A DNA stretch of 64,000 bases from a virus. Position 1 is the stretch's first letter, and the number at the start of each line of letters is the position of its first letter. A program made the translations under genes and the position numbers. The notes beneath the pieces are model-generated. The model was not told the DNA's origin, did no database searches, and was given only the letters and a program-made list of their open reading frames with translations. Shown here in pieces: positions 12,853-61,886 of the stretch. The stretch spans positions 1 to 64,000 of IMG/VR virus record IMGVR_UViG_3300010403_000025. One strand, given 5' to 3'.

Positions 12853-12855
12853 TGA

Positions 12856-14135: not shown

Positions 14136-14148
14136 GAATCGCAATGTG

Positions 14149-14262: not shown

Positions 14263-14268
14263 AGGTTA

Positions 14269-14274
14269 ATTATA
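14269..14274 (-). promoter_or_regulatory. TATAAT -10 box of leaderless mini-gene
   Basis: A perfect TATAAT on the minus strand ends six bases before ATG 14262, placing the predicted transcription start at the A of the start codon. The -35 region is weak. Confidence 0.55.
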
Positions 14275-14288
14275 ATGCGGGCGATAGC

Positions 14289-14990: not shown

Positions 14991-15003
14991 GATGAGACGG
15001 CGA

Positions 15004-15237
15004 TTAAAATAATGTGATCTTGATGAAATCGTCGTCACTCTCACGCTTTAATATAAAGCAGTCATGCGGCCACCAATCCGCGGCGTCATCGCCCTTACAT
15101 AGATAATGCTTGCCAAAAAACTCATTCAGCTGATCCGGAGAACGACGGGTAGTGAACCACGGCCCGCCGTAATGCTTTGCAATGCCGAAGCCTTGATTGC
15201 AGAACTTGCAAACGATATATAGCCGATCATTGGCCAT
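15004..15237 (-). CDS. Small Cys/His protein, antisense
   Basis: The 77-residue product starts MANDRLYIVCKFCNQGFGIA. CxxC near the N terminus with later CK and HDC could bind zinc. Its ATG is placed back to back with the next plus-strand gene's ATG, so the two start codons overlap in opposite directions. An AATAAT box lies five bases before the ATG. Function unknown. Confidence 0.6.
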   Translation of the reverse strand: MANDRLYIVCKFCNQGFGIAKHYGGPWFTTRRSPDQLNEFFGKHYLCKGDDAADWWPHDCFILKRESDDDFIKITLF

Positions 15238-16084: not shown

Positions 16085-16323
16085 GGCAGTTTATCGAGCG
16101 CTAATCCTTCAAGATACGCATATTCAATGACGGTGATATCGTCGCGCGTTTGCAGGCTACAGCAGGAGCAGGTGCCGAGCACCTCGTTCATTGTCCCTAT
16201 CAGGAATGTGCCTTTATCTGTTCGGATGATTGTCCCGGCGATAGAAAGCCTATTTCCGCCTAGTTCATCTTCGTTGATGAAGAGTTGAATTGATTGACCA
16301 TACGGAATCCACTGTAAATTCAT
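16081..16323 (-). CDS. 80-residue beta-rich protein, antisense
   Basis: The product starts MNLQWIPYGQSIQLFINEDE and contains CSCCSLQTRDD. It looks like a small beta-barrel. It ends at the preceding glycosyltransferase's stop (convergent overlap). A TAGAAT box (16330-16335) lies six bases before the ATG, again as in leaderless genes. Function unknown. Confidence 0.6.
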   Translation of the reverse strand: MNLQWIPYGQSIQLFINEDELGGNRLSIAGTIIRTDKGTFLIGTMNEVLGTCSCCSLQTRDDITVIEYAYLEGLALDKLP

Positions 16324-16329
16324 CCCGTT

Positions 16330-16335
16330 ATTCTA
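16330..16335 (-). promoter_or_regulatory. -10 box TAGAAT of leaderless mini-gene
   Basis: The minus-strand TAGAAT ends six bases before ATG 16323; the first plus-strand codon of the exostosin-like gene begins two bases away. The -35 region is weak. Confidence 0.45.
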
Positions 16336-16336
16336 G

Positions 16337-17257
16337 ATGAAGCAATACATTTACAAGCCTGAACATATTGGGCTAAGTCAGTGGCCATCCGGTGAACTAA
16401 GACTGGAAGGCATCGAGATCACGGATGATCCGCACTCTGCGGACATTTTTGTGTGCCCGGGAAATATCCGGCTCTTTGAAGCCACGCAGGGCACCGGCAT
16501 CTTGGATCACGCGAGACTCTACGGACTGCCGTACTTCGCTGGCAATGAATCGCGCCACGTCTTCTTCGATTGCTCGGACAATTTTAAAGCGGCGATTCGT
16601 CTGCCGATTCTATTTATCAAATGCGATGCCCGAACGTGGATGCTGCCGCATGATCCCGGTACTGTGCCTATCGCGTGGCCCGTCGAAGACTATGCCGAAT
16701 GTATGGAACTGCCGGATCGTGGTTTCATTCATGACATTAGTTTCCATGGATGGTTGTCCACGGATACGCGCACGGCATCCTCGAATGCGTGCCTGGATAA
16801 TCCCAAGCTTAAATCAGACGTTGCGCAGTACTCAGACTTCTTTGGATACCGTAAACCGGAGGATCCCGAATACACACGGCGCCGTGCAGCGTTTCGCCGG
16901 AGCATGAGAGACAGCCGACTCGCACTGTGCCCCGAGTCGATTCCCGGCGTGCTGCCGTACCGATTCTTTGAAGCGATGAGTGCGGGCCGGATTCCATTAC
17001 TCGTATCCAGTGACTACGTGCTGCCGTTCAGCCACGAGATACCCTACGATGATTTCATCATCCGCGTTGAAAGCCGAGATGCTTCTCAGGCGGATGCTGC
17101 TGCTCTGGCCTATCTTGACGGGAAAGCCGACCACGAACTGATCGATCGCGGATTAGAAGCGCGGCACTACTGGTTGAAATTTCTGGATGCTCGACGGTGG
17201 CCTGAAATCATGGCCTATGCGGTGACGCAGAAGTTGAAAACGTTGGTCACGTCATGA
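16337..17257 (+). CDS. Exostosin-like glycosyltransferase (GT47-type)
   Basis: The 306-residue GT-B enzyme has the exostosin signature in the C-terminal half: LCPESIPGVLPYRFFEAMSA then GRIPLLVSSDYVLPF and YDDFIIRVE. Upstream is FHGWLSTDTR, the typical central glycine region. Exostosins transfer GlcA, Gal or related sugars. Phage copies are uncommon. The start at 16337 abuts the divergent mini-gene, and the stop overlaps the next gene by ATGA. Confidence 0.82.
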   Translation: MKQYIYKPEHIGLSQWPSGELRLEGIEITDDPHSADIFVCPGNIRLFEATQGTGILDHARLYGLPYFAGNESRHVFFDCSDNFKAAIRLPILFIKCDARTWMLPHDPGTVPIAWPVEDYAECMELPDRGFIHDISFHGWLSTDTRTASSNACLDNPKLKSDVAQYSDFFGYRKPEDPEYTRRRAAFRRSMRDSRLALCPESIPGVLPYRFFEAMSAGRIPLLVSSDYVLPFSHEIPYDDFIIRVESRDASQADAAALAYLDGKADHELIDRGLEARHYWLKFLDARRWPEIMAYAVTQKLKTLVTS

Positions 17258-17430
17258 CTCCCGATCAAATCTCCGACTATGACGCCTTCGCCGATCTTCA
17301 AGAGCAAGCCGAAGCGTATGAAGCCGACGCTGCGGACTTGCAGGCTCAATATCTCGTCGCCGTCGAACTCGCGCGCCGGTTGCGATCGGAAGCGAAAGTG
17401 ATTGCCGAGCGATTAGGGCTGACGTGCTAG
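17254..17430 (+). CDS. 58-residue acidic helical protein
   Basis: It is coupled to the exostosin gene by ATGA. The product MTPDQISDYDAFADLQEQAE and on is a probable coiled coil. Its stop overlaps the antisense gene's stop by three bases. Function unknown. Confidence 0.5.
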   Translation: MTPDQISDYDAFADLQEQAEAYEADAADLQAQYLVAVELARRLRSEAKVIAERLGLTC

Positions 17431-17648
17431 TCGTAATCGATAAGACCCATCTTGTTCATGACAATCAACGCTGAGCCGACATATCGCCTGATCTCGACAT
17501 ACGGGCCGGAGCCGAAGCCGCGCTCCTTTTCTTGGGCTATCAGTTGCTCCCAACGTGCATCTGCCTCCTCTGGAGGAATGAAGCCGTCAGCCATCTCGAT
17601 ACGGTAGACGCCCTTAGCAATAGTATTGGTTAGTTCATCCCATTTCAT
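17427..17648 (-). CDS. 73-residue antisense protein
   Basis: From ATG 17648 the product is MKWDELTNTIAKGVYRIEMA and continues with an acidic helix and a hydrophobic C-terminal strand. The upstream in-frame ATG at 17708 is rejected because TATACT (17656-17661) lies seven bases before 17648. Function unknown. Confidence 0.55.
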   Translation of the reverse strand: MKWDELTNTIAKGVYRIEMADGFIPPEEADARWEQLIAQEKERGFGSGPYVEIRRYVGSALIVMNKMGLIDYD

Positions 17649-17655
17649 TTTATGA

Positions 17656-17661
17656 AGTATA
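17656..17661 (-). promoter_or_regulatory. -10 box TATACT of leaderless mini-gene
   Basis: TATACT on the minus strand ends seven bases before ATG 17648. No good -35 is seen at 17 bases. It lies between divergent small genes. Confidence 0.45.
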
Positions 17662-17665
17662 GCGA

Positions 17666-17836
17666 ATGACCGCCGAGCGGAAATACGCATTGCTTCAGGC
17701 AAGTGCATTGATCTTCGCCGAGACCCTAGACCACATGGACCCGAATAACCATCTGTCGGAAGAGGATCTCATCGAGTCCGCTGTGGCACGCGCCGAGTTG
17801 CTACTTGCTGAGATTGAACGGCGCGAAAAGGAATGA
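17666..17836 (+). CDS. 56-residue helical acidic protein
   Basis: The product MTAERKYALLQASALIFAET and on is acidic and helical. It overlaps the following glycosyltransferase-like gene by ATGA, which supports it as a real coupled gene. No family recognised. Confidence 0.5.
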   Translation: MTAERKYALLQASALIFAETLDHMDPNNHLSEEDLIESAVARAELLLAEIERREKE

Positions 17837-18552
17837 GTCTCGACACTCGCCTCGTTGTCGTTTCCTGTCCTCGTCGCGCACCGATTCAGCAAATATGGTG
17901 GGACTGCTTTAAGAGAAGCTGGCCGGATTGTCCGCTTCCCGTTACGGTGCTGTCGCCTGAAATAGACTTCGGATGGAATGCGAACTTAAGGCAATGCCTC
18001 GACACGCTCACGGAAGAATTGATCCTGCTCATGCTCGACGACAATTTTCTCGAGCCGCTACCGTCTGGTGAAATGACCGCAGGGATTTTTCGCGTGGCCG
18101 AACTGATGACAACGCATCCCGATATCGCGATGGTGAAACTTCAAGCCGGCGCGGCGCATGCTCCCGAGCTTGAATTTCCCGACTGGGACCGTATCCGCGA
18201 ATACGATCGCGCGCACCATCCATTCAAGAGAACGAACTTAGTCCCGACGCTCTATCGGCGAACGTGGCTGCATCGCTTATCGAGTGCAGTGCTGTCCGAG
18301 ATTGGCCCTGCGCGGGATGTTGGCCGAAACGGTGCGATTGAATTTGAAATGACAGGAACGCTACTGACGATGAATACCGAGAACTGGCCCGAGCGCATGA
18401 TGGGCGTGCATCGGCCGCTCCCTGGAGGTAACGGCGGCGATTCGTTTCTGACGTGCCTCGCGAATGATGCGGTACTGGAAGGAAGAATGCGGCCGATTGA
18501 CGTTTTGCAGAATCTTTGTGTCGGCGTTCCTGGGATTGAGGCGTTTTTATGA
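17833..18552 (+). CDS. Glycosyltransferase-like protein with DDN motif (paralogue 2)
   Basis: The 239-residue paralogue of the genes at 14289 and 22975 has the acidic pair in ELILLMLDDNFLEPL (D69-D70). The N terminus is MSLDTRLVVVSCPRRAPIQQ, with KRSWPDCPLPVTVLS matching the FWP...V-D segment of its relatives. A GT-A-like fold is inferred. The 3' end overlaps the convergent antisense gene by six bases. Confidence 0.65.
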   Translation: MSLDTRLVVVSCPRRAPIQQIWWDCFKRSWPDCPLPVTVLSPEIDFGWNANLRQCLDTLTEELILLMLDDNFLEPLPSGEMTAGIFRVAELMTTHPDIAMVKLQAGAAHAPELEFPDWDRIREYDRAHHPFKRTNLVPTLYRRTWLHRLSSAVLSEIGPARDVGRNGAIEFEMTGTLLTMNTENWPERMMGVHRPLPGGNGGDSFLTCLANDAVLEGRMRPIDVLQNLCVGVPGIEAFL

Positions 18553-18831
18553 TTTATAGGATATTGAGCCAATGATTACCTGGGTGGGACCGTCGAGAGA
18601 TGGTAGCTGCCAGGTATATGATCCGTTGACGAACGATACGTGTGTGCCAACGTTCTTCCATTGCCCGTTTATGAACAGCTGTAATTGGACATCATGGCTG
18701 TATTGAGCGACGGACACGACCTTCGGAATAAAAATGGTTTTCGCTTCTGGGCGCCAGAGCAGTTGTTCGGGATCTACGGCAAGGGACGCGGCCACTGCCA
18801 TCGCTCTCTGAAGAAATCCACGTCTATCCAT
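18547..18831 (-). CDS. Antisense protein with twin-arginine-like N terminus
   Basis: From ATG 18831 it encodes 94 residues starting MDRRGFLQRAMAVAASLAVD, resembling a Tat signal (RRGFL). It is followed by PEQLLWRPEAKTIFIPKVVS, a tail often seen in phage proteins with this head. The C-terminal part is beta-rich. An in-frame GTG at 18969 would add 46 residues and bury the signal, so it is disfavoured. Function unknown. Confidence 0.55.
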   Translation of the reverse strand: MDRRGFLQRAMAVAASLAVDPEQLLWRPEAKTIFIPKVVSVAQYSHDVQLQLFINGQWKNVGTHVSFVNGSYTWQLPSLDGPTQVIIGSISYKS

Positions 18832-19027
18832 AGCTATGAAGAACCTGTGAAAGCTAGCCGCTCCATCAAGGTTAGCCACTGGGACAGCGTTGGGCTGCAC
18901 GTCCACTTGGGCGTCAAGCGGTGAACGCTGAGCTACGCTTGACTTATCCGAAACGGATTCGCAGTTCACGACCTCCGCTTTCCTTACATACGGCGCTCTG
19001 GTCGCTAGCTTTAAAGAGAATCATACA
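18832..19027. other. Gap before the PLP/PMP-enzyme gene
   Basis: About 200 bases with no convincing gene. The plus strand has AAAGAGAAT shortly before TTG 19028. On the minus strand a possible longer N terminus of the antisense gene would extend to 18969. I see no strong promoter or terminator. Confidence 0.3.
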
Positions 19028-20302
19028 TTGATCTACGCTCAAGCGCATCCCGTAGCACTGCGAGAGATGATTGAAGAACGTCTCGCTCAAGCACCGGCAC
19101 CAACCTATCCCTACCCTCTCGGCTATGTCACTTGGACGGCGGATGAAATCTTAGCGGCGCTGGATTGTCTCTGCGATCGCATGACGACGATGTGGACGAA
19201 GGTCGAGGACTTCGAGAGGCAATTCGGCGACTATCTTGGATCTCAACGGGCCGTGATGGTGAACTCCGGATCGAGCGCGGACCTCGTCATGATGCTGGTT
19301 TCACGCGAACTGGGAATGCTCCAGCGCGGCGATGAGATCCTGATGCCGGCCGTTACTTGGCCGACACAGGCATGGGCGGCAATCGAGGCGGGATTCTCGG
19401 TGAGGTTCGTTGACGTCGAAGTCGCCACGCTGAATACCTCGCCGGCGATTCTCGAAGCGGCGATTACACCAAAGACGAAAGCGATCTTCCTCGTCCACCT
19501 GATGGGCAATCCCTGCGAGATGGATGCGATTCAAGAACTGGCCGAGCGCCACAAGCTATTGATCTTTGAGGACTGCTGCGAAGCCCTCGGTGCGGAGTTC
19601 GATGGTCACAAGGTCGGAACGTTCGGAGTAGCAAGCGCCTTCTCATTCTTCGCGTCTCATCACATTTCGACGATGGAAGGCGGCATGATCACGACAGAGA
19701 GCGCGGAGTTTGCGGAAGGTTGCCGATTGATGCGCGCTCATGGTTGGGCTCGCGATATGCGCTATCGGCTGAATGATGTGGAGTGCCTGACGCGGTATGG
19801 TTGCGTGGATGATCCGCATTATTTATTCCTTGCGATGGGTTTTAACTTCCGGCCTACCGAACTGCAAGGCGCTATGGGGCAGGTGCAGCTCGAGAAACTC
19901 GACACCATGAACCGATGGCGCGAGACGAATGCGACGGCAATTGCGAATCAGTTTCGAACAACGAACGAGCACACCGTAGAAGCCTTGATGCCGACGAGCT
20001 ACAAAGCCACGCCTGCGTGGTTTGGTCTGCCATTCGTGATTAAAGACAAGATGCCGTACACGCGAAGCGATGCGGCGCGATATTTGAAACAGTACGGAGT
20101 CGATACCCGGCCGATCGTGGGCGGAAACCTTATGAGACATCCAGCGTTTTGGAAGTATGCCGCGATGGCCGCAGATGCCCTGCCCGGTGCGAACGCGATT
20201 CACGATCGCGGCTTCTATGTGGGCCTACCACCCTTTGAAGCATCGATGAATGGATTAGTGGGACTGCTCAGCAATATGGATTCTTATCTACGATGCGCTT
20301 AA
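19028..20302 (+). CDS. DegT-family sugar enzyme with His at the PLP-lysine position (ColD/RfbH-like 3-dehydratase)
   Basis: The 424-residue fold-type I protein has the family's order of motifs: VNSGSSADLVMMLVS, PAVTWPTQAW, EDCCEALGAEFDG and FNFRPTELQGAMG. The loop that normally carries the PLP-binding lysine reads SFFASHHISTMEGG, with H211 in that place. ColD and RfbH, which use PMP to remove the 3-hydroxyl of 4-keto-6-deoxy sugars, also carry His there. A 3-deoxysugar pathway is therefore suggested. The start TTG is uncertain (next ATG at 19067). Confidence 0.8.
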   Translation: MIYAQAHPVALREMIEERLAQAPAPTYPYPLGYVTWTADEILAALDCLCDRMTTMWTKVEDFERQFGDYLGSQRAVMVNSGSSADLVMMLVSRELGMLQRGDEILMPAVTWPTQAWAAIEAGFSVRFVDVEVATLNTSPAILEAAITPKTKAIFLVHLMGNPCEMDAIQELAERHKLLIFEDCCEALGAEFDGHKVGTFGVASAFSFFASHHISTMEGGMITTESAEFAEGCRLMRAHGWARDMRYRLNDVECLTRYGCVDDPHYLFLAMGFNFRPTELQGAMGQVQLEKLDTMNRWRETNATAIANQFRTTNEHTVEALMPTSYKATPAWFGLPFVIKDKMPYTRSDAARYLKQYGVDTRPIVGGNLMRHPAFWKYAAMAADALPGANAIHDRGFYVGLPPFEASMNGLVGLLSNMDSYLRCA

Positions 20303-20764
20303 TGACGGTGATTCATGAGGCAACGCTGATTCGATGTCATCGGCCAGCTTACGGAGTGCATTCATAATGCTAGATAAGCCATCGCTAAACGAACCGTCCT
20401 CTCGACACTGCGCGATGTCGTCTTCGAGCGCAGCGCGTAGGTTGAACGAGTACTCTGGATCTCGATCGTCAATGTCGCCAAGTGCAATACTGAGATAGAT
20501 TGTGAGCGGATCAACTGGCTCGGTCTTTTTCCGTCCGTCGCCATCGCCCCATATGGCTGGCCAGTCTATGCGCGTATTCTCATCCTTTAGGGCTAATACG
20601 AGCGCCTCTTCCGCCGCGCGGGTAATAAGTTGTTTTAGTCCACCTATGGCTTCATCTAGCGAGGTCAAGGCCCAGTCAGTTAGGTCCGGCCTGTTGTATT
20701 CGTGGGTAAGGTTTATCACGCCTCGCGGCGGTTGGACATCTTTGTTAGATTTCTTTTTAGCCAT
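20288..20764 (-). CDS. 158-residue protein of unknown function, antisense
   Basis: The product is acidic and helical, with a Lys-rich head (MAKKKSNKDVQPPRGVINLT). GGAGG lies ten bases before the ATG, so unlike the mini-genes it has a normal leader. The IS element has inserted into its leader at 20802-20809. A TTACAA/TATATT promoter in the element's left end now points at it. Confidence 0.6.
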   Translation of the reverse strand: MAKKKSNKDVQPPRGVINLTHEYNRPDLTDWALTSLDEAIGGLKQLITRAAEEALVLALKDENTRIDWPAIWGDGDGRKKTEPVDPLTIYLSIALGDIDDRDPEYSFNLRAALEDDIAQCREDGSFSDGLSSIMNALRKLADDIESALPHESPSLSAS

Positions 20765-20801
20765 GAGCGGGATTCCTCCGTTTGTGGTCAGAACCCGTCA
20801 A

Positions 20802-20809
20802 GGAGTTAG
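20802..20809. repeat. Target-site duplication, left copy
   Basis: GGAGTTAG directly precedes the left terminal inverted repeat and is repeated exactly after the right one at 22937-22944. Eight bases is the duplication size of IS1595-family elements. Confidence 0.85.
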
Positions 20810-20815
20810 GGCAAT

Positions 20816-20844
20816 AATATACTTGACTGACATACCCTTTGTAA
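20816..20844 (-). promoter_or_regulatory. Outward-facing promoter in the left IS end
   Basis: On the minus strand TTACAA (20839-20844) and TATATT (20816-20821) have a 17-base spacer and point out of the element towards the 158-residue gene at 20764, whose own GGAGG remains upstream of its ATG. Confidence 0.5.
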
Positions 20845-20852
20845 CATATAGT
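20823..20852 (+). promoter_or_regulatory. Transposase promoter, leaderless arrangement
   Basis: TTGACT (20823-20828) and TATAGT (20847-20852) are 18 bases apart. The -10 box ends seven bases before the transposase ATG at 20860 and no Shine-Dalgarno sequence is present. The -35 hexamer lies inside the inverted repeat. Confidence 0.65.
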
Positions 20853-20859
20853 TCTTTAT

Positions 20860-21849
20860 ATGGATAAGAACTCTTTGCCGCAGACCTTACAAGAAGCCGT
20901 CATTTACTTCGCGGACTATCAGCATTGCCACGACTTCATGATATCGCTTCGTTGGCCTGATGGCGTCGTGAAGTGCCCGCATTGCGGCTCTGACAACGTG
21001 AAGTATTTGCCAAATGCTCGCGTGTTCAAATGCTTCGAAAAACATCCGCTCGCGAAATTCTCATTGAAGGTCGGAACGATTTTTGAAGACTCACCAATCA
21101 GCCTGGATAAATGGATTATCGCAATGTGGCTTGTGGTGAACTGCAAAAACGGCGTCTCGTCCTACGAGATTGCGCGCGATTTGAAAGTCACACAGAAAAC
21201 CGCATGGTTCATGGACCATCGCATTCGATTTGCGCTTCACGCTGGATCATTCGAAAAGATGGGCGGCGAAGGAACGGAAGTCGAAGCCGATGAAACGTAT
21301 ATCGGCGGACTCGCACGCAACATGCACAAAGATGTTAGGGCCCGCAAGATCCAGGGGCGCACTGGCTATGCTGGTAAGACTGCCGTGTTCGGTTTATTGG
21401 AACGCGGCAAGAATGGAAAGTCTCGCGTCAAAGCTCAGGTTCTACCGAATCAGTGGAACACCAAAGAAGCCCGCGCCATCATTCGCGAAACGGTTGAGCA
21501 AGGAACAAACCTCTACACCGACGAACACGGCGCATATCACGCGATTGGTTCCGAAGGTTTCAACCATGCGTTCGTTCGGCACGCGGAGTCTTACGTTGAT
21601 GGCGCGGTTCACACCAATGGAATTGAAAACTTCTGGTCACTCTTGAAGCGCGGCATCAAGGGCACATACGTTAGCGTGGAGCCGTTTCATATGTTTCGCT
21701 ATCTGGACGAACAGGCTTTCCGCTTCAACGAGCGCTTTGGAAACGACCAAGACAGGTTCTTGGCTGCAATGCAAGGTGCAGTAGACAAGCGACTCACATA
21801 TAAATTGCTCACGGGAAAACTGGAGGATGCTAGTTCGGTATCTAACTAA
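20860..21849 (+). CDS. IS1595-family transposase
   Basis: The 329-residue DDE-type transposase has an N-terminal zinc ribbon (VKCPHCGSDN, about residues 40-50), then a helix-turn-helix (NGVSSYEIARDLKVTQKTAW). The catalytic core follows, with acidic residues in VEADETYIGG, LYTDEHGAYH and TNGIENFWSLLKRG. The HTNGIENFW and KRGIKGTYVSVEPFH stretches are hallmarks of the ISXO2-like/IS1595 group. Length is normal and the frame is intact, so it may be active. A terminator-like hairpin follows. Confidence 0.93.
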   Translation: MDKNSLPQTLQEAVIYFADYQHCHDFMISLRWPDGVVKCPHCGSDNVKYLPNARVFKCFEKHPLAKFSLKVGTIFEDSPISLDKWIIAMWLVVNCKNGVSSYEIARDLKVTQKTAWFMDHRIRFALHAGSFEKMGGEGTEVEADETYIGGLARNMHKDVRARKIQGRTGYAGKTAVFGLLERGKNGKSRVKAQVLPNQWNTKEARAIIRETVEQGTNLYTDEHGAYHAIGSEGFNHAFVRHAESYVDGAVHTNGIENFWSLLKRGIKGTYVSVEPFHMFRYLDEQAFRFNERFGNDQDRFLAAMQGAVDKRLTYKLLTGKLEDASSVSN

Positions 21850-21879
21850 AACTGAGAAGAGGCGACAGAAACGAGGAAA

Positions 21880-21912
21880 GCGGAAGTCTTAACGCGGCTT
21901 CCGCTTCGTTTG
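21880..21912 (+). terminator. Terminator-like hairpin after transposase
   Basis: GCGGAAG (21880-21886) pairs with CTTCCGC (21898-21904), followed by TTCGTTTG. It overlaps the end of the convergent 46-residue gene. The T tract is broken, so activity is uncertain. Confidence 0.45.
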
Positions 21913-22029
21913 TTTCTTTCGTTTCGGTAGTGCCGATTTTGGCACAGTCAGAACGGCTTTCATGGCATCGCGCAAACGCTTGAATGCTTCCGGGCCTTCG
22001 ATCATTTCACGATGTTTCGTGCTACCCAT
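21889..22029 (-). CDS. 46-residue basic protein in the IS element
   Basis: The product starts MGSTKHREMIEGPEAFKRLR and ends in a Lys/Arg tail. The (I/F)EGPEAxxRF..AM..(I/V)L.VPK pattern is a widespread bacterial small-protein family of unknown role. It has a good Shine-Dalgarno sequence (AGGAAAGGA) just before the ATG. As a passenger gene it may be an antitoxin-like or regulatory partner; this is a guess. Confidence 0.65.
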   Translation of the reverse strand: MGSTKHREMIEGPEAFKRLRDAMKAVLTVPKSALPKRKKQTKRKPR

Positions 22030-22063
22030 GCGCTTCCTTTCCTAATGGTTCATAGTAGCACGG

Positions 22064-22885
22064 TCACGGAAATAGGCCGCTACTGACGAACTGTGGCAAT
22101 AAATGAACTCGGATATAGGAATGAATTCCCGCAAGGGTTTTGACAACCAATTCATCTTTGGCCACGCCACTGGCGAACGCAATACTCATCAGTGGTCTGA
22201 TCAACATTGCCATTTCAGGGTGATCGATCCAAAAGGAAAATGGCCGGAGTTCGGCAATTACTGTGTCTGTCGTTATCATCCGACCGCCGAAGTACGTGTT
22301 CTGTTGCTGCAAGAATGGGTGAAGCTCGGGTACATCGAACGTGTCAACGGTAGCGCCGCTGGTATGCAAGACCCTGTGCTTATCCGCATTGGACAATTCG
22401 GCCAAAAGCCCAAGGTGTGTTTTGAGTGGGAATGGGTCGTGGTGCGGCTGCAAACTCTTGATCAGTGTCTTGGCCGCTGGGTCCATTCCATCGATTCTCC
22501 GTTCTTGACTCTTGGGGAATCCGTCTTTCGTGTTGGGGTCGCTCTTGACGACGATCGGGAATTGGGAGCTCTTTGCGATCTCATCGCTAATTGCCGACCC
22601 GATCTTTCGATGATGGGCTTCAATCAGTGCGAAGTTAATGTGATCGAGAGAGCCACGCAGATTATGAAGTATATCCCCGATGATCAACGAGAACGGGTCG
22701 TCAGGTGGTTGGACTCCAATGCTGATTCTGTATTCGATATAGTGACTGGGGTCTTGAATTGGCTGGAGTCGAAACGTCGCTTTACTTTCGGATTGGACCC
22801 AATTGGTGATCTCCGACCGCAATTGCTTCAAGTGATACTGCGCCCTGTCGAGTTTAAGAATAAAGCTGTGATCTGGGGAGGCCAC
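22064..22885 (-). CDS. Passenger gene of IS element: GDxLHNLRxxLDH protein
   Basis: The 273-residue product begins with GTG 22885, about 50 bases inside the right end. It contains IIGDILHNLRGSLDHINFAL (about residues 85-105) and LLAELSNADKHR near 170. These motifs mark a common but uncharacterised family. RGSLDH fits the Rx4H spacing of HEPN ribonucleases, so an RNase or abortive-infection role can be imagined but not shown. A -35-like TTGGCT in the inverted repeat points at this gene. Confidence 0.7.
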   Translation of the reverse strand: MASPDHSFILKLDRAQYHLKQLRSEITNWVQSESKATFRLQPIQDPSHYIEYRISIGVQPPDDPFSLIIGDILHNLRGSLDHINFALIEAHHRKIGSAISDEIAKSSQFPIVVKSDPNTKDGFPKSQERRIDGMDPAAKTLIKSLQPHHDPFPLKTHLGLLAELSNADKHRVLHTSGATVDTFDVPELHPFLQQQNTYFGGRMITTDTVIAELRPFSFWIDHPEMAMLIRPLMSIAFASGVAKDELVVKTLAGIHSYIRVHLLPQFVSSGLFP

Positions 22886-22936
22886 GACCGTCTATTCTTA
22901 CGTACTCTGGGGCTGTCAGCCAAGTATGTTATTGCC

Positions 22937-22944
22937 GGAGTTAG
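22937..22944. repeat. Target-site duplication, right copy
   Basis: GGAGTTAG is identical to 20802-20809 and directly follows the right terminal repeat. Confidence 0.85.
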
Positions 22945-22974
22945 CAGCTCCTTAGCGGGTTCGCTTATTTTAGC

Positions 22975-23658
22975 ATGAAACTTGCTGTCGCCACCTGCTG
23001 GGCCTATCGGGATGCGCTTTTACCGTTCTTCTATCTGCTCGATAAGTTTTGGCCGACGCATCCGGAAGTGACGATCGTAACGGATGAATGGTGCGGTGAT
23101 AGCTACGGTGCCGACGTGTATCAAGGTGGACGAAAGACATGGTGTCAGATTCTCGCGGGATATGCGAAGGAAGCGGAAGAGACGATACTCCTCCTTCAGG
23201 ACGATTTCTTCCTGACAGTGCCAGTTCAGAACGACCTCGTGATTCACGGACTGAAGGAAATGTACACGTATGACGCGGGTTGCGTTCGACTCTATCCGTG
23301 TCCCGGTGGAGTGGAACGTTACGGCGATCCGTACTTTCAAGTCGTCCCGAATGGCGAACGGTACAGGGTAAGTTGTCAGGCCAGTCTATGGAAGCCGAGC
23401 TATCTCTATAAGATTGTGAGCAAATGCCACGACCACGGAGAACCGAGCGACTTTGAAACCAACGGCACCGTGTATAGCTATCAACTACCGGAGCCGGTCC
23501 TAGCATTCAAGGCCGATATACGACCGTTGCCGCTGGACTATCTGTGCAGCGCCATTTCGAGAGGACTATGGGAACCGGCTGCTATTGAGCTGTGTGAGAA
23601 GTATCACATCCCGATGGATCGATCGATGCGTGAGGTCGCAACGCCGTGCTTAACGTAA
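22975..23658 (+). CDS. Glycosyltransferase-like protein with DDF motif (paralogue 3)
   Basis: The 227-residue protein (MKLAVATCWAYRDALLPFFY) has the acidic pair in TILLLQDDFFLTVP (D76-D77). DKFWPTHPEVTIVTDEW matches the corresponding segment of the genes at 14289 and 17833. The N-terminal fold looks like GT-A. It is the first gene after the IS element and overlaps the next gene by 13 bases. Confidence 0.65.
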   Translation: MKLAVATCWAYRDALLPFFYLLDKFWPTHPEVTIVTDEWCGDSYGADVYQGGRKTWCQILAGYAKEAEETILLLQDDFFLTVPVQNDLVIHGLKEMYTYDAGCVRLYPCPGGVERYGDPYFQVVPNGERYRVSCQASLWKPSYLYKIVSKCHDHGEPSDFETNGTVYSYQLPEPVLAFKADIRPLPLDYLCSAISRGLWEPAAIELCEKYHIPMDRSMREVATPCLT

Positions 23659-24323
23659 CGGCGATCATGCCGACGCGCGGAAGGCGCGTCTGGGCGAATC
23701 AAGCCTTGAAGTGTTTTCTCGCGCAGACCTACGAACACAAAGATTTGATCATTCTGGATGACGAGGACAATCCATCCTTTCCAATACCGCCGAAGTATCC
23801 CAACGTGGCGCACATTCTCTTAAAAGAGAGAATGTCGATAGCCGCTAAACGCAACATGGCGGTGCGATTGGCGACGGGTGAAATCATTTGTCATGTCGAT
23901 AGTGACGACTACAGCGCACCGAATAGATTTCAAGACCAAGTCGCGCTCCTCGAAGAACATCACAAATCCGTCACCGGATACCATTCGATGATTTTCCACG
24001 ATGCGGAACGCGGCCTTTGGTATTTCAAAGGCCTTCAGGGGTTTCCGATGGGAACGAGTCTCATGTATCGGAAATTGTTCTGGAGTGGATGTCAATTCGT
24101 ACCGGACCCGATTCATGTGGCGCTCGGTGAATTGAACGTCGGCGAAGACAATATGTTTGCCAGGGCGGCGCGAAACGCTAACGAAGTCATCACGACAGAT
24201 GCAGGCTTCACGATGGTCGCGCGAAGTCATTCGGATAACGTCTCGAAACGCGATGTTCTAAATCGCGAGCATCAAGAGTGGCATCGCTGGACGGGTGGAT
24301 TGCCGACAGGGTTTACGCCGTGA
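23646..24323 (+). CDS. Glycosyltransferase family 2
   Basis: The 225-residue GT-A enzyme has the N-terminal VTAIMPTRGRRVWANQAL and the metal-binding HVDSDDYSAPNRF (D85-D88). The C-terminal part includes GEDNMFARAARNA, the GT2 ED catalytic region. Start is GTG 23646 within the end of the previous gene. It is the last enzyme of the sugar cassette. Confidence 0.85.
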   Translation: MLNVTAIMPTRGRRVWANQALKCFLAQTYEHKDLIILDDEDNPSFPIPPKYPNVAHILLKERMSIAAKRNMAVRLATGEIICHVDSDDYSAPNRFQDQVALLEEHHKSVTGYHSMIFHDAERGLWYFKGLQGFPMGTSLMYRKLFWSGCQFVPDPIHVALGELNVGEDNMFARAARNANEVITTDAGFTMVARSHSDNVSKRDVLNREHQEWHRWTGGLPTGFTP

Positions 24324-45418: not shown

Positions 45419-47140
45419 ATGCCATTCGGTGGTTTCGGCAATCATCCCGGTATTGGGACGCTCAACTTCAGCGTTACTGCTCCGCCGGATACGTTCGCAC
45501 GGCCTCGGGTTGAAGAAGCCACCGTTGCGGCGGGCGGGGTCAATGCAACCGTCAATGCTGTCGGCGCAGAGATCCTCGTTGAAGTCGGCTCCGCTTCCGT
45601 TACCGCAGCCGCCAATGTTACGGCCGTCGGCGCTGAGATTCTCGTTGAGCAGGGAAGCGTCACTGTATCGCTCGCTGCTTCCGCAACTGTCAATGCAACC
45701 GGAAACTTCGCTACATTCGAGCAAGGCACCGCGACCGTTACTGCCGACGCCAATGTTAATGCAAGCGGTGCGCAAGTCCTCGTTGAACAAGGCACCCCAA
45801 CTGTCACTGCCAATGCCACCGTCAATGTTTCTGGTTCTGAAATTCTCACCGAGAAAGGGACCGTCGCTCTCGATATCGGTCAAACGGTCACGGCGAGTGG
45901 TTCAGAGATCCTCGTTCAGCAAGGATCCGTTACCGAAAGCGGCGATGCGAACGTCACTGTTACGGGTCAACAAATCCTCGTTGAGCAAGGGACAGCTCAA
46001 GCGGGCAGCCTCGTATCCATCAATGCTATCGGTCAAGAAGTCCTCGTTGAACAAGGCGCTGCAACGGAGACCGGCGATGCGAATGCCACCGCGGTCGGTC
46101 AGGCAATTACCGCCGAGCAAGGCACCGTTACCCTTACGGCAGATGCCAATGTCACCGTTTCAGGCGCTCAGATCCTTGTCGAGCAAGGCGCGGCCACTGT
46201 TACTGCTGGCGCAGGCGTATCGGCGGTCGGAGCGCAGATCAATGCGGAGCAAGGCGTTGTTACCGAGAGTGGCGATGCCAATGTTACCGCGGTTGGCGCA
46301 CAAGTTCTCGTCGAACAAGGAACGGCGCAGGCTGGAAGTCTTGCGTCCATCAATGCAACGGGCCAGGAAGTCCTTGTTGAATCTGGCACTACAACTCAGT
46401 CGGGTGCAGCGAATGTCACGGCTGTTGGTAACGAAGTCCTCGTCCAATCTGGAACAGCCACCGTCACCGTCGATCAGAGCGTTGCCGTTACAGGCGCCGC
46501 AATCACGGCGGAAATCGGCACGGTTACCGAAAGCGGCACCGATCAGACTTCTGCTGTTGGCCAGGAAGTCCTCGTTGAATTCGGTACTATCTCGGTTACC
46601 GCGGGTGGCAGCGTCAGTGTTGGCGCAATTGGCAATGAAGTCCTCGTCCAGGCTGGGACGGTATCCGTTCAAGCCGATGCGACGGTCAATGTTACTGGAC
46701 TCGAAATCGCGGTTCAGATCGGGACGAGCACGCAAAGCGGGACAGCCGTTGTCTCGCTCTCAGGAAATGAGATATCGGCTGAACTTGGCGTCGTCTCCGT
46801 CTCGGGTGCTGCCAATGTCACCGTCAGCGGCTCGCAGGTTTTGGTTCAGGTCGGGACCGTTACCGTTGATCTCGGTGCCACGGTTCAGATTACCGGGATT
46901 GCGATCAATGTCGAGACGGGTACGGTTCTTGTTAGCGGAACCGCAATCGTCACGCTTTCCGGGAATTCCATCACCGCGGAATTTGGCTCTACCGGAATCC
47001 AGATCCAGACCGGTTTCACCTACCAACTGGTCATCTCCGATGCGGCCGTTACCAATGTGACGCTGTCGGATGAATCAGTGACGCGGTTAGAAATCAGCGA
47101 TGAAGCCGTAACACGAGTTCTCGTTAGCGAGCTGGTCTGA
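45419..47140 (+). CDS. 22-residue-repeat protein (solenoid-like)
   Basis: The 573 residues are built almost entirely from about 20 repeats of 22 residues, each like VTAVGAEILVEQGTVTVTAD with two short beta strands, encoded by a 66-base period. A C-terminal cap differs (TLSDESVTRLEISDEAVTRV). A beta-solenoid or Ig-like stack forming a rigid fibre is likely. Codon third positions vary among repeats, so it is maintained at protein level. The reading frame is chosen over overlapping open frames because of the repeat and composition. Confidence 0.8.
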   Translation: MPFGGFGNHPGIGTLNFSVTAPPDTFARPRVEEATVAAGGVNATVNAVGAEILVEVGSASVTAAANVTAVGAEILVEQGSVTVSLAASATVNATGNFATFEQGTATVTADANVNASGAQVLVEQGTPTVTANATVNVSGSEILTEKGTVALDIGQTVTASGSEILVQQGSVTESGDANVTVTGQQILVEQGTAQAGSLVSINAIGQEVLVEQGAATETGDANATAVGQAITAEQGTVTLTADANVTVSGAQILVEQGAATVTAGAGVSAVGAQINAEQGVVTESGDANVTAVGAQVLVEQGTAQAGSLASINATGQEVLVESGTTTQSGAANVTAVGNEVLVQSGTATVTVDQSVAVTGAAITAEIGTVTESGTDQTSAVGQEVLVEFGTISVTAGGSVSVGAIGNEVLVQAGTVSVQADATVNVTGLEIAVQIGTSTQSGTAVVSLSGNEISAELGVVSVSGAANVTVSGSQVLVQVGTVTVDLGATVQITGIAINVETGTVLVSGTAIVTLSGNSITAEFGSTGIQIQTGFTYQLVISDAAVTNVTLSDESVTRLEISDEAVTRVLVSELV

Positions 47141-47340: not shown

Positions 47341-47856
47341 ATGAATCACGTTCTTGCCTTACCGTCTGCCCTCGCGCCGCGCGAATCCTTCTGGGATAAG
47401 ATCCGGCGGCATTGGGCGATTACTGCGGCCGTCTGCGAAAGTTTCAAAAAAGAACTCCTTCAAGCCCTGCACGATTTCACGATAACGACGGGGCACGTCT
47501 TCAAGATCGCGCTCTATACCTCATCCGCCACACTGAATGCCTCGACAACGAATTACAGTACAACCAATGAAGTGGTGGGCGCGGGCTATAGCGCGGGCGG
47601 TACGGTCATTACGTCATCCACCCCGGTGTTGAGTACGGGTGGCGTGGGAGCGGTCGCCCTCTGCGACTTCACGGATGCAGTGTGGACGACAGCCACCATT
47701 ACAGCCAGAGGCGCGCTGATCTACAACGATACCTCGGCGAATGATAAGGGTGTGCAGGTGCTCGATTTCTCGACCGATCAAACGTCAACAGCGGGAACCT
47801 TCACGATCGTCTTCCCGGCACCGGCCAAGACGACAGCGATTCTGAGACTCAACTAG
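47341..47856 (+). CDS. Conserved phage structural protein
   Basis: The 171 residues include CESFKKELLQALHDFTITTG and KIALYTSSATLNASTTNYST, a combination found in many phage tail regions (often annotated as hypothetical or virion). The rest is beta-rich with VLSTGGVGAVALCDF. Likely a tail or fibre accessory protein. Confidence 0.6.
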   Translation: MNHVLALPSALAPRESFWDKIRRHWAITAAVCESFKKELLQALHDFTITTGHVFKIALYTSSATLNASTTNYSTTNEVVGAGYSAGGTVITSSTPVLSTGGVGAVALCDFTDAVWTTATITARGALIYNDTSANDKGVQVLDFSTDQTSTAGTFTIVFPAPAKTTAILRLN

Positions 47857-47857
47857 A

Positions 47858-48634
47858 ATGCACGTCCGCTTTCGTGGCGACCGCTTGAGTGTGATCGAGA
47901 ATGGATGGCTGGATCGGGCCTCGATGATCCTCTGCTATTTCATTCTCGGTCCACTGTTCGGTGTGCGCCAACAAATTGAACCGGATATCAAGCCGAATAA
48001 GCGACTGGCCTTTATTCTGGTTCTCAATCTGGCGTTCCTGTTTTGGGCCGCGCCGATGCTGTTGCGGCTCGGGTTGGCGTGGACTCTCGTGACGCCGGCG
48101 GTGCTGTACGTGTGCTACTCGATGCCGGAAGTCGTGTACGAGCATCGGAACTATGTCGCGTTGTTAGGCATTGCTACTCTCGCGGCATGGTCGGCGGAAC
48201 GCGCGCCGCTTCTGGTTGCGGGACTCGCGGCTCTTTATGTCGGACGGACGATTCTGCGGAATCGACGGCTGAGCACAGCCTTTGGTTACTGGAAGTTGGC
48301 CTACGAAGAAAGTCCGCATCATTGGCGCGTGCGGTTCAACTACGCGCAACAGCTTCAAATCAACGGTAAAGAACTGGATGCCTTACCGTTACTGCATAGC
48401 CTGTTCGATGCACCTCGGCCTTGCGGCGAAACGGCGGCGCAGCACGCGAGCGTAATTTATCTGAAGCACCAACGTCTTGAGGATGCCGAGAAACTTCTTG
48501 GGTCGCGCGGTGAAGCTATCTTGAAATTCCCGAATAACCGTGTCCTGCGAATCTTGCGGTCGGATATGTTGCGCAGCCAGGGAAAAGCGGAACAGGCCGA
48601 CTTGGCGTTACAAGCCGCGAAGGCGTTAGCATGA
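47858..48634 (+). CDS. C-terminal half of a TMTC-like (GT-C) glycosyltransferase, with TPR
   Basis: The 258 residues have four or more transmembrane helices (about 22-128), then tetratricopeptide-like helices. EHRNY at 95-99 and TILRNRRLSTAFGYWKLAYE match the conserved end of the membrane domain of TMTC-type enzymes (E.R.Y....G; RN..W.....W). Alone it lacks the catalytic acidic loop, found in the separate 43-residue gene at 48921. It may assemble with that gene product and the one at 49594 in the inner membrane. Confidence 0.7.
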   Translation: MHVRFRGDRLSVIENGWLDRASMILCYFILGPLFGVRQQIEPDIKPNKRLAFILVLNLAFLFWAAPMLLRLGLAWTLVTPAVLYVCYSMPEVVYEHRNYVALLGIATLAAWSAERAPLLVAGLAALYVGRTILRNRRLSTAFGYWKLAYEESPHHWRVRFNYAQQLQINGKELDALPLLHSLFDAPRPCGETAAQHASVIYLKHQRLEDAEKLLGSRGEAILKFPNNRVLRILRSDMLRSQGKAEQADLALQAAKALA

Positions 48635-48921
48635 ACAACTACGATAAAGGCGACGTCGTCCGATGTTACGGACACTTCACCAATAACCTGGACGCGGATA
48701 TTGATCCGACCAGCGTCTTCTTTTCGGTCATCGATCCCACCCAAGCGCAGACCAATTATCAATACGGCGTGGGTATCCAGATCATCAAAGATTCGGTGGG
48801 TCACTATCACGCCGACGTTGATGCAGACCTCGAAGGCTACTATCGTTATAGGTGGTACTCGACGGGAACCGGCAAGGCTGCCGATGATGCGTGGTTTGTC
48901 GTGGATCCCACACCCTTCTAA
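48631..48921 (+). CDS. Small phage tail-type beta protein
   Basis: The 96 residues (MNNYDKGDVVRCYGHFTNNL) have the common phage layout GDxVR...DPTxVxF...GxYxYRWxSTG. It lies between two pieces of the split glycosyltransferase and overlaps both (ATGA upstream, TAATG downstream). Probably a virion accessory protein. Confidence 0.6.
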   Translation: MNNYDKGDVVRCYGHFTNNLDADIDPTSVFFSVIDPTQAQTNYQYGVGIQIIKDSVGHYHADVDADLEGYYRYRWYSTGTGKAADDAWFVVDPTPF

Positions 48922-49052
48922 TGGACCTCATTCTCTTGATTACTATCGGCCTTGCGTGTCTCGTCGCGTACTGGCCGAGCCTCACTGCTGAACTGACTTT
49001 CGACGATCATTCCGTCATGGACGCCCTGGATGATCATTTGAGGCCGCTATGA
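48921..49052 (+). CDS. 43-residue N-terminal piece of a TMTC-like glycosyltransferase (catalytic FDD)
   Basis: MDLILLITIGLACLVAYWPS is one transmembrane helix. LTAELTFDDHSVM follows, matching the start of TMTC-type GT-C enzymes, where the helix leads to a luminal (periplasmic) loop with the catalytic DD. In full-length relatives the middle membrane part and TPRs follow in one chain; here they are in separate genes at 49594 and 47858. The ATGA overlap with the methyltransferase supports translation. Confidence 0.65.
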   Translation: MDLILLITIGLACLVAYWPSLTAELTFDDHSVMDALDDHLRPL

Positions 49053-49597
49053 GTTTGGCTCAACTCTGCAATCGTCTCAGCGCGTTTCGGCATCATGTGC
49101 TGGGCCGAACGTATTTCTATGGTGCCCTTCAGTCGCATCGGGCACCGCACATGAAAAGGCTGGCTCGTGCCGAGTTTTACCGTCTGGGCCGGCGGCTGAA
49201 TATTCTCGAGGTTGGTTCATTTCGGGGAGAATCCGCCGCGCTGTGGGGGGAGTTTGGTCACGTAACCTGCGTGGATCTATGGCCGGACGGAACTGGTATT
49301 TTCGCGCGCAACATGAAACTGCTCGGCGTGGACTATACGAGTTATCGCGGAGACAGTGCCAAGCTGTTGAAGCAGTTCATTGAAGCGGGCCACTTGTACG
49401 ATATCGTCTACATTGATGGCGCTCACGATTATCACGGCTGCCGATCGGATTTGGAACTCGGCCGTCAATTGGTTAAACCGGGCGGCATCCTGTGCGGCGA
49501 CGATTTCGACGAGGAGCATCCGGGAGTCATCAACGCGGTTGGGGATATTTTGGGAAACGTTCAGGACCGTGAAGGCTTTTACTGGATGAATCCATGA
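49049..49597 (+). CDS. Class I SAM methyltransferase
   Basis: The 182 residues have motif I LNILEVGSFRGESAALWGEF, then CVDLWPDGTG, YDIVYIDGAHDYHGCRSDLE and KPGGILCGDDFDEEHPGV. This is the layout of Methyltransf_24-type sugar or small-molecule O-methyltransferases with a metal-binding DGAH..DD set. It is coupled to the glycosyltransferase pieces on both sides, suggesting methylation of the same glycan. Confidence 0.82.
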   Translation: MSLAQLCNRLSAFRHHVLGRTYFYGALQSHRAPHMKRLARAEFYRLGRRLNILEVGSFRGESAALWGEFGHVTCVDLWPDGTGIFARNMKLLGVDYTSYRGDSAKLLKQFIEAGHLYDIVYIDGAHDYHGCRSDLELGRQLVKPGGILCGDDFDEEHPGVINAVGDILGNVQDREGFYWMNP

Positions 49598-50043
49598 GGC
49601 TCTATCGTGCGATCGATTGGCTATTGCGCCGGCACCGCCACTTGGTTTACGCGACCTACCATCGCGATCTAAGAATCCACGGCAAGCAGGATCTCAAGAA
49701 GAACAAGCATATGGAAGGCTGGCACGCGACGAATATCGCGCTGCACATCCTAGCCGCCAGTCTGGTCTACGCGATCCTGCGTGGCTTCTTTGCGCCATTG
49801 TCGGCCAGTCTCGGCGCTTTAGTCTTCGCCGTTCATCCGATGGGTACCTCATCCGTGAGCACCCTTTCCGGCCGCTCGTCGCTACTCTGCGGGGTCCTGT
49901 ATCTCGCCGGGATTCTCGGTGCACTGATCGGTGGATGGTGGTGGGTGGTGGTTCCGGTCTGCTTCGCTTTGGGCTGGGTCTCGAAGCAGGAAATCATCAT
50001 GCTGCCTGTAGTGATCGTGTTGACGTTGTGGATCATCCGGTGA
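49594..50043 (+). CDS. Middle membrane part of a TMTC-like glycosyltransferase
   Basis: The 149 residues include WHATNIALHILAASLVYAIL (43-62), GALVFAVHPMGTSSVSTLSG (74-93), RSSLL and SKQEIIMLP (130-138). These match the ordered motifs of TMTC membrane domains (YH..N..LH, L.FA.HP..TE.V....GR..LL, SKE...LP). The family's first helix and DD loop are absent here and present in the gene at 48921. ATGA overlap upstream and GTGA downstream. Confidence 0.75.
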   Translation: MRLYRAIDWLLRRHRHLVYATYHRDLRIHGKQDLKKNKHMEGWHATNIALHILAASLVYAILRGFFAPLSASLGALVFAVHPMGTSSVSTLSGRSSLLCGVLYLAGILGALIGGWWWVVVPVCFALGWVSKQEIIMLPVVIVLTLWIIR

Positions 50044-50438
50044 AGCATCTCGTCCTGTCGCTGATCCATTGGTCTCAACAGCACCGCCTCTTCGATACGT
50101 TTCTTTGGTACGACATTTTTGTCGGAACGGGCCGAACGTTTCTTTCCGGTGTGGGAATTGGTATCGGCGTGAGTGCGACGTTTGCTGCATCCAGTCTGAT
50201 GATTAGTCTTCAAGAGCGCGCGACCTTCCCGATGATAATGGCTGAGATTGAGAGTTACCGGGCACTACCGGAATCCGTCAAGTGTTCGCCGCAGATCAGC
50301 AACACCATTGCCAATCTCAACGCACGGGTGGCGCATGAGAAAGAATCGAATCGGCATGGATTTTCTGATTTGTTCTCCACGGATCGTTGGAACAACGTTC
50401 AGCCTATTACTGTGACCTGTGCGTCTCAAGATCCGTGA
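50040..50438 (+). CDS. Membrane protein of lysis/tail border
   Basis: It starts at GTG 50040 (GTGA overlap) and has 132 residues, with one strong hydrophobic stretch (FLSGVGIGIGVSATFAASSL) and a charged C-terminal part. No known family recognised. It is coupled to the coiled-coil gene by a one-base overlap. Confidence 0.5.
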   Translation: MKHLVLSLIHWSQQHRLFDTFLWYDIFVGTGRTFLSGVGIGIGVSATFAASSLMISLQERATFPMIMAEIESYRALPESVKCSPQISNTIANLNARVAHEKESNRHGFSDLFSTDRWNNVQPITVTCASQDP

Positions 50439-50983
50439 TGACGGGCGGCGACAAGATTTCACTTAAAGAATACTTTGAGGTGCTGCTCAAAGAACGAGAT
50501 TTGTACTACATCGAAAAGATAAAACATCTGGAAGCGCTAATGAGTGGCATCGATGTAAAACATACGGCAGCCGTCCAAGCCGTCAAAGAATTGCAGGCGA
50601 GCATTTATACCGCTTCGGAGAAAGCCATCCTGAAAGCGGAAGAGCAACAGAAAGAACTGAATATCAAAAATAATGAATTCAGGGCGCAGCTCAAAGACCA
50701 AGCCGAAGTCCTCATGCCTCGGAATGAGTCTCAAACCTTGCATAAAAATTCCGACGAAAAAATATCGGGGTTAAAAAAAGATTTCGACGCGCAGCTGGAA
50801 CTCATCCGCAGACATTTTGACGAGAAAACAGAATTCAATCGTAAAAGCATTCAAGAGCTGAGGGAAGCAAAGTCCATGGGCGAAGGCAAATCGACTGGAG
50901 TCCGCGATTTTCGAGACTTTGCCGGATGGGGCGTTGCTATCCTCTTGGGACTGTTAGCCCTCGCTCAATATCTCCGACCTTAA
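50438..50983 (+). CDS. Coiled-coil protein with C-terminal membrane anchor
   Basis: From ATG 50438 it has 181 residues. A long charged coiled coil (about 10-140, many Glu/Lys) is followed by AGWGVAILLGLLALAQYL, one transmembrane helix at the C terminus. Such proteins occur near phage lysis genes. Function unknown; a spanin-like or membrane-anchored role is possible. Confidence 0.55.
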   Translation: MTGGDKISLKEYFEVLLKERDLYYIEKIKHLEALMSGIDVKHTAAVQAVKELQASIYTASEKAILKAEEQQKELNIKNNEFRAQLKDQAEVLMPRNESQTLHKNSDEKISGLKKDFDAQLELIRRHFDEKTEFNRKSIQELREAKSMGEGKSTGVRDFRDFAGWGVAILLGLLALAQYLRP

Positions 50984-60713: not shown

Positions 60714-61886
60714 TTAGCTGGTCGTTCCTTTCGGTGTAGTGATTTCGGTAGCGACTCCACCGGCTTCGCCTCTCAGGGTTTTCCCGTAGAGCTCGAATTG
60801 CTTCATCGCGAGAGACAAGTAATCCCGCGACGTGTGGATGTATTTGGCACACATCTTCGGATTGGAGTGGCCCAAGGCTTTCATCAAGACAAAGACATCG
60901 CCGTTGGTGGACTCGGCCAGACGAGTGGCGAAGGTGTGACGGAGCGAGTGCAGGACAAATTCGCGGGGGAATTTAATTTCGGGCTGAAGCACGTTCGCGT
61001 GAGGGCGACGTTGACCCCGTGTATAACCGGTAGAATTCCTCTGCCGCTGTGGTGCGGCCAGCCCATTCCTCAGTTTCGTGTGGAGATTGCCCAATGCCGT
61101 CCTTGTGTAGTGCCCACCCTTCAATCCCGGAAATACCCACGTGGAATCGTGGTGGACGGCAAAGCACAATTCGAATACTTGCTTCGTTCTTTCAGTTTGC
61201 GGAAGGGATCGTTGGGCATTGGGCGTTTTGCCACTCCTGATGGTGACGACGTATCGGTCTATGTCGCCCTTCCGCAAAGATACCGCCTCCTCGGGCCTCA
61301 GTCCCAAGTCGAGCATCAAGATCGCCGCCTGCTTCAAGGGATACGGTGCCAAGGCCAAGTACGCCTTCTCCATTTCGCCGGTCAACACAAAGTCGCGTTG
61401 ATGCTCACCGGGCAAGGAACTGACTTTCACGTCGTCCATCAGCTTGCAGCGTTTGGCAAAAATCAACGCCTTTCGCAACACACGGAGCTCGGCATTGATC
61501 GACGCAATGGCCATTTTCTTCTGAAGCCGCGCGTCCTTGTAGGCCTGGATCGACAACTCGGTGAGTTTATCCAGCGTCAACGTGCTGAACGGTTCATGGG
61601 TACACAAACAGCGGACCCGTTCGGTGTAGAAGCGCAGCGTGGTGGGTTTCTTGATGTCTTGCTTCTGTTTGTCGAGAAACGGGCCCTTGAGAAAGGCCAC
61701 GAGCGTGGGCGTAGGTTCTTTCTGGATCAGGCCGACGCCGGTGAGCGCCAGGTTGGTGCGGTATGCGGCGAGCCAAGCCTTCGCTTGTTCATGGTTAGTG
61801 AGATGCGTGGATTGTTGATGGCGAGTCTTCTTGTACCAAAAATCTGCGTGCCACACACGGCCGCGTTTGACGAGTCCAGCGCTCAT
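60714..61886 (-). CDS. int: Tyrosine site-specific integrase
   Basis: The 390 residues have the catalytic set R197 (LGLRPEEA), K220 (RSGKT), H313-x-x-R316 (LHSLRHTFA), H340 (LGHSNPKM) and Y349 (AKYIH). A core-binding SAM-like domain lies at about 60-160 and an Arg/Lys-rich insertion near 270-300. Normal length. It would integrate the phage at attB; attP was not located. ATG 61886 has GGAG upstream. Oriented against the excisionase-like gene. Confidence 0.93.
   Translation of the reverse strand: MSAGLVKRGRVWHADFWYKKTRHQQSTHLTNHEQAKAWLAAYRTNLALTGVGLIQKEPTPTLVAFLKGPFLDKQKQDIKKPTTLRFYTERVRCLCTHEPFSTLTLDKLTELSIQAYKDARLQKKMAIASINAELRVLRKALIFAKRCKLMDDVKVSSLPGEHQRDFVLTGEMEKAYLALAPYPLKQAAILMLDLGLRPEEAVSLRKGDIDRYVVTIRSGKTPNAQRSLPQTERTKQVFELCFAVHHDSTWVFPGLKGGHYTRTALGNLHTKLRNGLAAPQRQRNSTGYTRGQRRPHANVLQPEIKFPREFVLHSLRHTFATRLAESTNGDVFVLMKALGHSNPKMCAKYIHTSRDYLSLAMKQFELYGKTLRGEAGGVATEITTPKGTTS

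Follow-up and report, generated by a model that had tools for sequence, protein, structure and literature searches.

Eukaryotic TMTC1-4 have a DD motif in EL1, a GR-type EL2, the lysine of a KE motif, an ERxxY-like motif before TM10, and C-terminal TPRs (PMC7801869). Among phages, gtrABC O-antigen modification cassettes (e.g. PMC2629481) bring a polytopic GT-C-like glycosyltransferase element into a temperate phage. TMTC-like genes in phages were not reported in any of the literature that our searches found. We analyzed a 64,000-nucleotide window, which is most of the 66,745-base IMG/VR virus record IMGVR_UViG_3300010403_000025. Three of its ORFs (here the N, M, and C pieces) have the DD, GR-type, lysine, and ERxxY-like features of TMTC1-4 and, probably, the C-terminal TPRs. 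Unlike TMTC1-4, they lack TM7 and the KE glutamate, they are three separate chains, and they have no DUF1736 match; the whole record lacked any match to Pfam TMTC_DUF1736 (PF08409) at E 10. As with gtrABC, the carrier is a temperate phage, and a surface-modification role would be analogous. A difference is that the pieces are positioned between tail and lysis genes, and no Pfam match to a GtrA flippase or to GtrB was found beside them among the genes scanned, which were part of the gene set.

The gene content was that of a tailed temperate phage. Terminase, capsid, and portal genes are located at 0.1–7.8 kb, tail genes reach 47.9 kb, an M15-type peptidase is at 53.3 kb, an Erf recombinase and an exonuclease are at 54.8–56.3 kb, and an integrase is on the minus strand at 60714–61886. 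The portal is apparently divided as well: 5306–6706 matched PHROG 2271 positions 13–417, and the overlapping gene 6706–7827 matched positions 718–856 and carries collagen-like repeats. Both genes are also present in a related phage, G003.

The three pieces are on the plus strand in the order C, N, M. The C piece (47858–48634, 258 aa) contains the remainder of the EL4 loop, TM8–TM11, the EHRNY motif, and a putative TPR tail. It is followed by a small phage tail-type gene (48631–48921, plus strand, 96 aa) with a weak match to PHROG 18294 (E 0.0015). The N piece (48921–49052, 43 aa) contains TM1 and an FDD catalytic-type motif. A class I SAM methyltransferase (49049–49597, plus strand, 182 aa; Pfam Methyltransf_24, E 2.9e-13) comes next, for which no relatives were found in phage records. 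The M piece (49594–50043, 149 aa) starts with a basic N-terminal tail, followed by TM2–TM6 with HP, GRS, and SKQ motifs. The next gene in the coupled run (50040–50438, plus strand, GTG start, 132 aa) has a hydrophobic stretch. It is not a TMTC piece and had no match in either GT-C profile described below, in PHROGs, or in Pfam (scanned from codon 2). It is overlapped by the last gene listed in the run, 50438–50983. All six junctions from 47858 to 50983 are overlaps of 1 or 4 nt (−4, −1, −4, −4, −4 as far as 50040). A sequence-only reading of the window had reported three open frames in permuted order, separated by a tail-type gene and a methyltransferase and coupled by short overlaps; all of these points were confirmed. 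Rfam gave no match at the locus. Upstream, a gene of unknown function on the plus strand (47341–47856, 171 aa; PHROG 644, E 3.9e-19) stops 1 nt before the C piece. Further upstream, 45419–47140 encodes a 573-aa protein with many short degenerate repeats (EILVEQGT..TVTASA-like); related contigs carry comparable repetitive ORFs close to their PHROG 644 gene.

A hand-written TPR GT-C consensus was used only as bait for real genes, and 80 chromosomal loci were returned. The first profile (TMTCb) was made from 69 of them, chromosomal beta/gamma-proteobacterial TPR GT-C proteins. Its top three among 765 ORFs were the N, M, and C pieces, at the consecutive and non-overlapping positions 11–46 (E 3e-5), 91–219, and 326–453. 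The second profile (SHORT, 448 columns) was made from 15 nearer intact bacterial TPR-type GT-C proteins. It was searched against 2375 stop-to-stop segments from all frames of the whole 66.7-kb record, and the only three matches were M (columns 70–194, E 6.8e-18), C (columns 252–416, E 1.9e-8), and N (columns 10–37, E 0.019). Thus, both profiles picked out exactly the ORFs that the sequence-only reading had named as the first, middle, and last portions of a TMTC-like GT-C. Its proposed concatenation was also analyzed with the 69-protein profile. The pieces joined N-M-C were similar to the TPR GT-C family at 35.7 bits, and the pieces joined in genomic order gave four segments with positions out of order. 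The mean alignment scores of N, M, and C were 43, 134, and 90, respectively, versus 99th percentiles of 40, 52, and 53 for composition-shuffled controls, which were far below M and C and lower than N.

Genome searches of the tblastn type gave the same picture. A chromosomal gene matched the M piece with 43% identity over 112 aa (E 5.8e-12), and the C piece matched intact chromosomal genes with E down to 7.6e-6. Several intact chromosomal ORFs (e.g. G066:C14, G107:C1, and G030:C28) were found independently by M and by C, each piece aligning with the end expected for it. In a second phylum, to which the Myxococcales assembly G034 belongs, M matched 45 of 195 genomes (best E 3.5e-11). General databases returned little. 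Pfam PMT_2 matched M at E 2.1e-4 (22.0 bits, under its 26.1 cut-off), and Pfam TPR matched C at E 0.02 only. In Pfam and NCBIfam scans, TPR was the only name given to the bacterial family, apart from PMT in a single member; when the family profile was searched against PDB, the top 60 hits were all TPRs. Nothing meaningful was found by phmmer against PDB sequences, and single-sequence searches of phage records, plasmids, and IMG/VR gave no close relatives of the queries P0001 and P0003. The profile alignments showed that N, M, and C are parts of one protein family in consecutive, non-overlapping segments. Because of this coverage, and because M and C found the same intact genes, we infer that they were formerly one TMTC-like, TPR-bearing gene, with N at its start, M in the middle, and C at its end. 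Their common ancestry is supported strongly, and the present order C-N-M is permuted relative to intact proteins.

Two groups of intact bacterial proteins were compared with the pieces. Short-type TPR GT-C proteins (~450–590 aa; L123–L156 and L159–L164) come from the order of Gallionella and other proteobacteria, with related proteins in Myxococcota. The pieces align with them end to end over TM1–TM6, EL4–TM11, and the TPRs, and M is up to 43–47% identical over 90–112 aa. Unlike the pieces, these proteins are one chain, with TM7 present, an EL1 that is not basic, and KE in nearly all of them; they were never split among the matches seen. The beta/gamma-proteobacterial TPR GT-C proteins with FEHRNYLP (L040–L119) have the same layout and have EHRNY in common with the C piece. 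However, they are single chains of ~650 aa with QRM instead of GRS, and they score more weakly with M.

These differences bear on whether the pieces came into this phage by separate captures from different GT-C genes, without ever being one gene there. M scored much better with the short family than with the EHRNY family, N and C showed little preference, and C carries EHRNY, typical of the EHRNY family, rather than the [DE]RxLY of the short family. On the other hand, M and C each scored best with the short family, and the pieces are three consecutive, non-overlapping segments of one protein within 2.2 kb, none of them duplicated. We regard separate capture as very unlikely. Searches of about 1,000 bacterial genomes with M or C (order, class, and phylum samples) showed no split copy among their matches. 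All but two of the listed bacterial matches were in an open frame of at least 329 aa; the exceptions, 299 and 184 aa, were at contig starts, and a 114-aa frame from a weak match (E 0.055) was left out of this count.

The motifs proposed from the sequence alone were mostly found. The N piece has FDD, the DD motif of EL1, at residues 27–29. The C piece has EHRNY at residues 95–99, before TM10, and its EHRNY....G and RN...W elements are real. The M piece has WHATNIALH, FAVHPMGTS, GRSSLL, and SKQ, so HP and GR stood, but the TE expected after HP is missing and SKE was corrected to SKQ. The change places Q at the family-invariant E181 column, in the KE motif of EL3. By itself, KQ is no sign of decay because the intact phage relative L158, described below, also has KQ. 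Two alignments of the N/M break are possible, one between the DD and RPL motifs and the other at the LRPL that ends the 43-aa gene. A break exactly inside the RPL motif was dropped as a certainty, as HMMER and MAFFT placed the RPL equivalent at RHL within M. For profile columns 195–251, which correspond to TM7, no remnant was found in any frame of the 66.7 kb. The locus therefore does not encode a single chain with 11 TM helices and TPRs; there are three ORFs, and the TM7 columns are absent.

The family-invariant positions retained are DD, N, HP, T, V, GRS, P, I-PD (one D to E), W, Y, T, RN, W, SP, and RV. Those replaced include the E-to-Q change after the EL3 lysine and the R, L, and N positions of [ND][DE]RxLY, where C carries the EHRNY of the other family. 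The pieces kept 38 of 76 invariant positions (0.50), versus 0.45 in the intact but distant EHRNY family; for variable positions the values were 0.19 and 0.25, respectively. Most of their divergence resembles that expected under constraint, a likeness that cannot date the break. The codon scores of C (0.15) and M (0.14) were compared with a mean of 0.10 for structural genes and 0.01–0.09 for cargo genes. This native, structural-gene-like usage suggests a long residence in the phage. As the conserved positions were kept as well as in an intact distant relative and codon usage was native, the pieces are, by these measures, not a fresh wreck.

Charge distribution was then compared with 71 intact relatives. 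In the intact family, basic residues are located in cytoplasmic loops. In M, these loops are shortened and their basic residues lost, and its N-terminal part, expected outside, contains 11 K/R and 7 H. The charge bias, a rule of thumb calculated as K+R in the EL1 half minus K+R in the rest of TM2–6, was +7 for M versus a maximum of −3 among the relatives. Because this is outside the range of all 71, the positive-inside rule predicts that M inserts inverted. The shift in C was milder: its EL4 part had a net charge of +3, versus a mean of −1.4 and a maximum of +2 in intact relatives. The EL4 helix of C could insert as an extra TM, keeping the native side of C. AlphaFold2 modeled M as a helix bundle (pLDDT 80.7) and C as a helix bundle with a TPR-like tail (mean pLDDT 75.0). 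Foldseek against PDB and BFVD gave no significant match for the piece models. For the M model, the GT-C mannosyltransferase PimE scored TMq 0.42 with an rmsd of 3.7, which was not significant (E 9.8), and TPR folds were among the weak matches of the C model.

An in-frame 20/22-nt direct repeat is present at 47942–47963 in C and 49912–49933 in M; it was not reached in 30 Markov shuffles. It sits where M lost the basic cytoplasmic loop and is possibly a trace of recombination. A repeat joining C and M, in a locus known from a single record, is also what an assembly or sequencing artefact might involve, with a chimeric contig or indels making a one-chain gene look split and reordered. However, every boundary is a clean start/stop overlap, and the interposed tail-type gene and methyltransferase share the composition and codon usage of the pieces. 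Indels cannot shift C ahead of N, and TM7 would still need to be somewhere. An artefact is highly improbable.

Fused and split versions had been proposed as a search target in phages, and one fused relative was found, with no second split version seen. Three alignment queries of IMG/VR together gave this one relative, L158 (IMGVR_UViG_3300017971_002134), in a limited, non-exhaustive pattern search; two earlier profile queries of IMG/VR gave no confirmed relative. Other ORFs of this phage contig resemble terminase subunits, portal, and capsid. Its single intact 409-aa TMTC-like ORF (2377–3606) is a neighbor of the terminase and portal genes and is located upstream of the terminase. Like the pieces, it is phage-borne, belongs to the same GT-C superfamily, and has KQ for KE; it has FEHRLYLP and DDYK. 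Unlike them, it is one ORF in an unrelated phage, with ~25% identity to M in a 77-residue stretch only.

A tblastn search of phage records found no TMTC-like GT-C gene. Terminase relatives and PHROG 644 relatives were without the pieces; homologues of the PHROG 644 gene were found in 17 viral contigs, none with the pieces downstream. The next-nearest phages by terminase, G001 and G003 (59%), had no match to any piece and also lacked the 16-kb glycan gene block found here at 8.1–24.3 kb, indicating that the lineage gains and sheds surface-glycan genes. This block (8132–24323) encodes a GT2, methyltransferases, a GT1-like enzyme, a Vsr-type endonuclease, a Gfo/Idh/MocA oxidoreductase, a GT47 exostosin, a DegT aminotransferase, an IS1595 transposase, and a second GT2. 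Its flanks, gene 7824–8135 and the head-closure gene at 24295, are adjacent in G003 (L033), which is thus an empty site.

Could the pieces still work as one enzyme? N, M, and C would then assemble in the inner membrane and transfer sugar from polyprenyl phosphate to a periplasmic acceptor during lysogeny. The acceptor could be a surface glycan, a pilin, or a tail protein of the phage, and methylation by the interposed enzyme might follow. The coupled open frames, the native codon usage, the positions kept at DD, HP, GR, K, IEPD, EHRNY, and RN..W, the temperate carrier with an integrase and large glycan cargo, and the one-chain phage relative L158 are consistent with such an enzyme. The main argument against it is the reversed charge pattern of M. 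TM7 is also missing, the E of KE is replaced by Q, the order is permuted, and no second split copy was seen. It is therefore doubtful that the pieces form a working three-chain enzyme. The sequence-only reading had offered it beside a decaying gene kept in pieces; the former was weakened and the latter fits better.

We consider that a GT-C gene was probably acquired, broken, and permuted, and that it now encodes three membrane proteins without the ancestral activity, decaying or re-used. An ancestor of this temperate phage would have acquired a TPR-bearing TMTC-like GT-C gene from bacteria long ago. The arrangement C, tail gene, N/M could have come from a tandem duplication in which the first copy lost N and M and the second lost C, and the methyltransferase gene may have been placed at the N/M break. 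Each piece would be made as a separate membrane protein by translational coupling in the late operon, as the overlaps suggest. M would lie upside down, with its HP, GR, and K loops cytoplasmic, while the DD loop of N probably faces out. Because TM7 is gone and the charges of M predict inverted insertion, the ancestral periplasmic sugar transfer was most likely lost. The most likely present state of the pieces is slow decay or re-use as small membrane proteins. Evidence against decay is that all pieces are open, with 1–4-nt overlaps throughout, native codon scores, and half of the invariant positions kept. There is also a bare chance that the pieces were kept because they inserted upside down together, as a multi-chain, cytoplasm-facing GT-C-type membrane protein working with the methyltransferase encoded between them.

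TMTC-like GT-C genes are very rare in viruses, as the limited IMG/VR pattern search gave one further case, L158. With its split, its permuted order, and its inverted charges, this copy offers a natural test of two things: whether cuts between helices can be survived by a polytopic glycosyltransferase, and how the membrane topology of a protein drifts after breakage. Pieces that still assemble would form a rare multi-chain GT-C enzyme. If they do not, they would show phages keeping translatable fragments of acquired enzymes.
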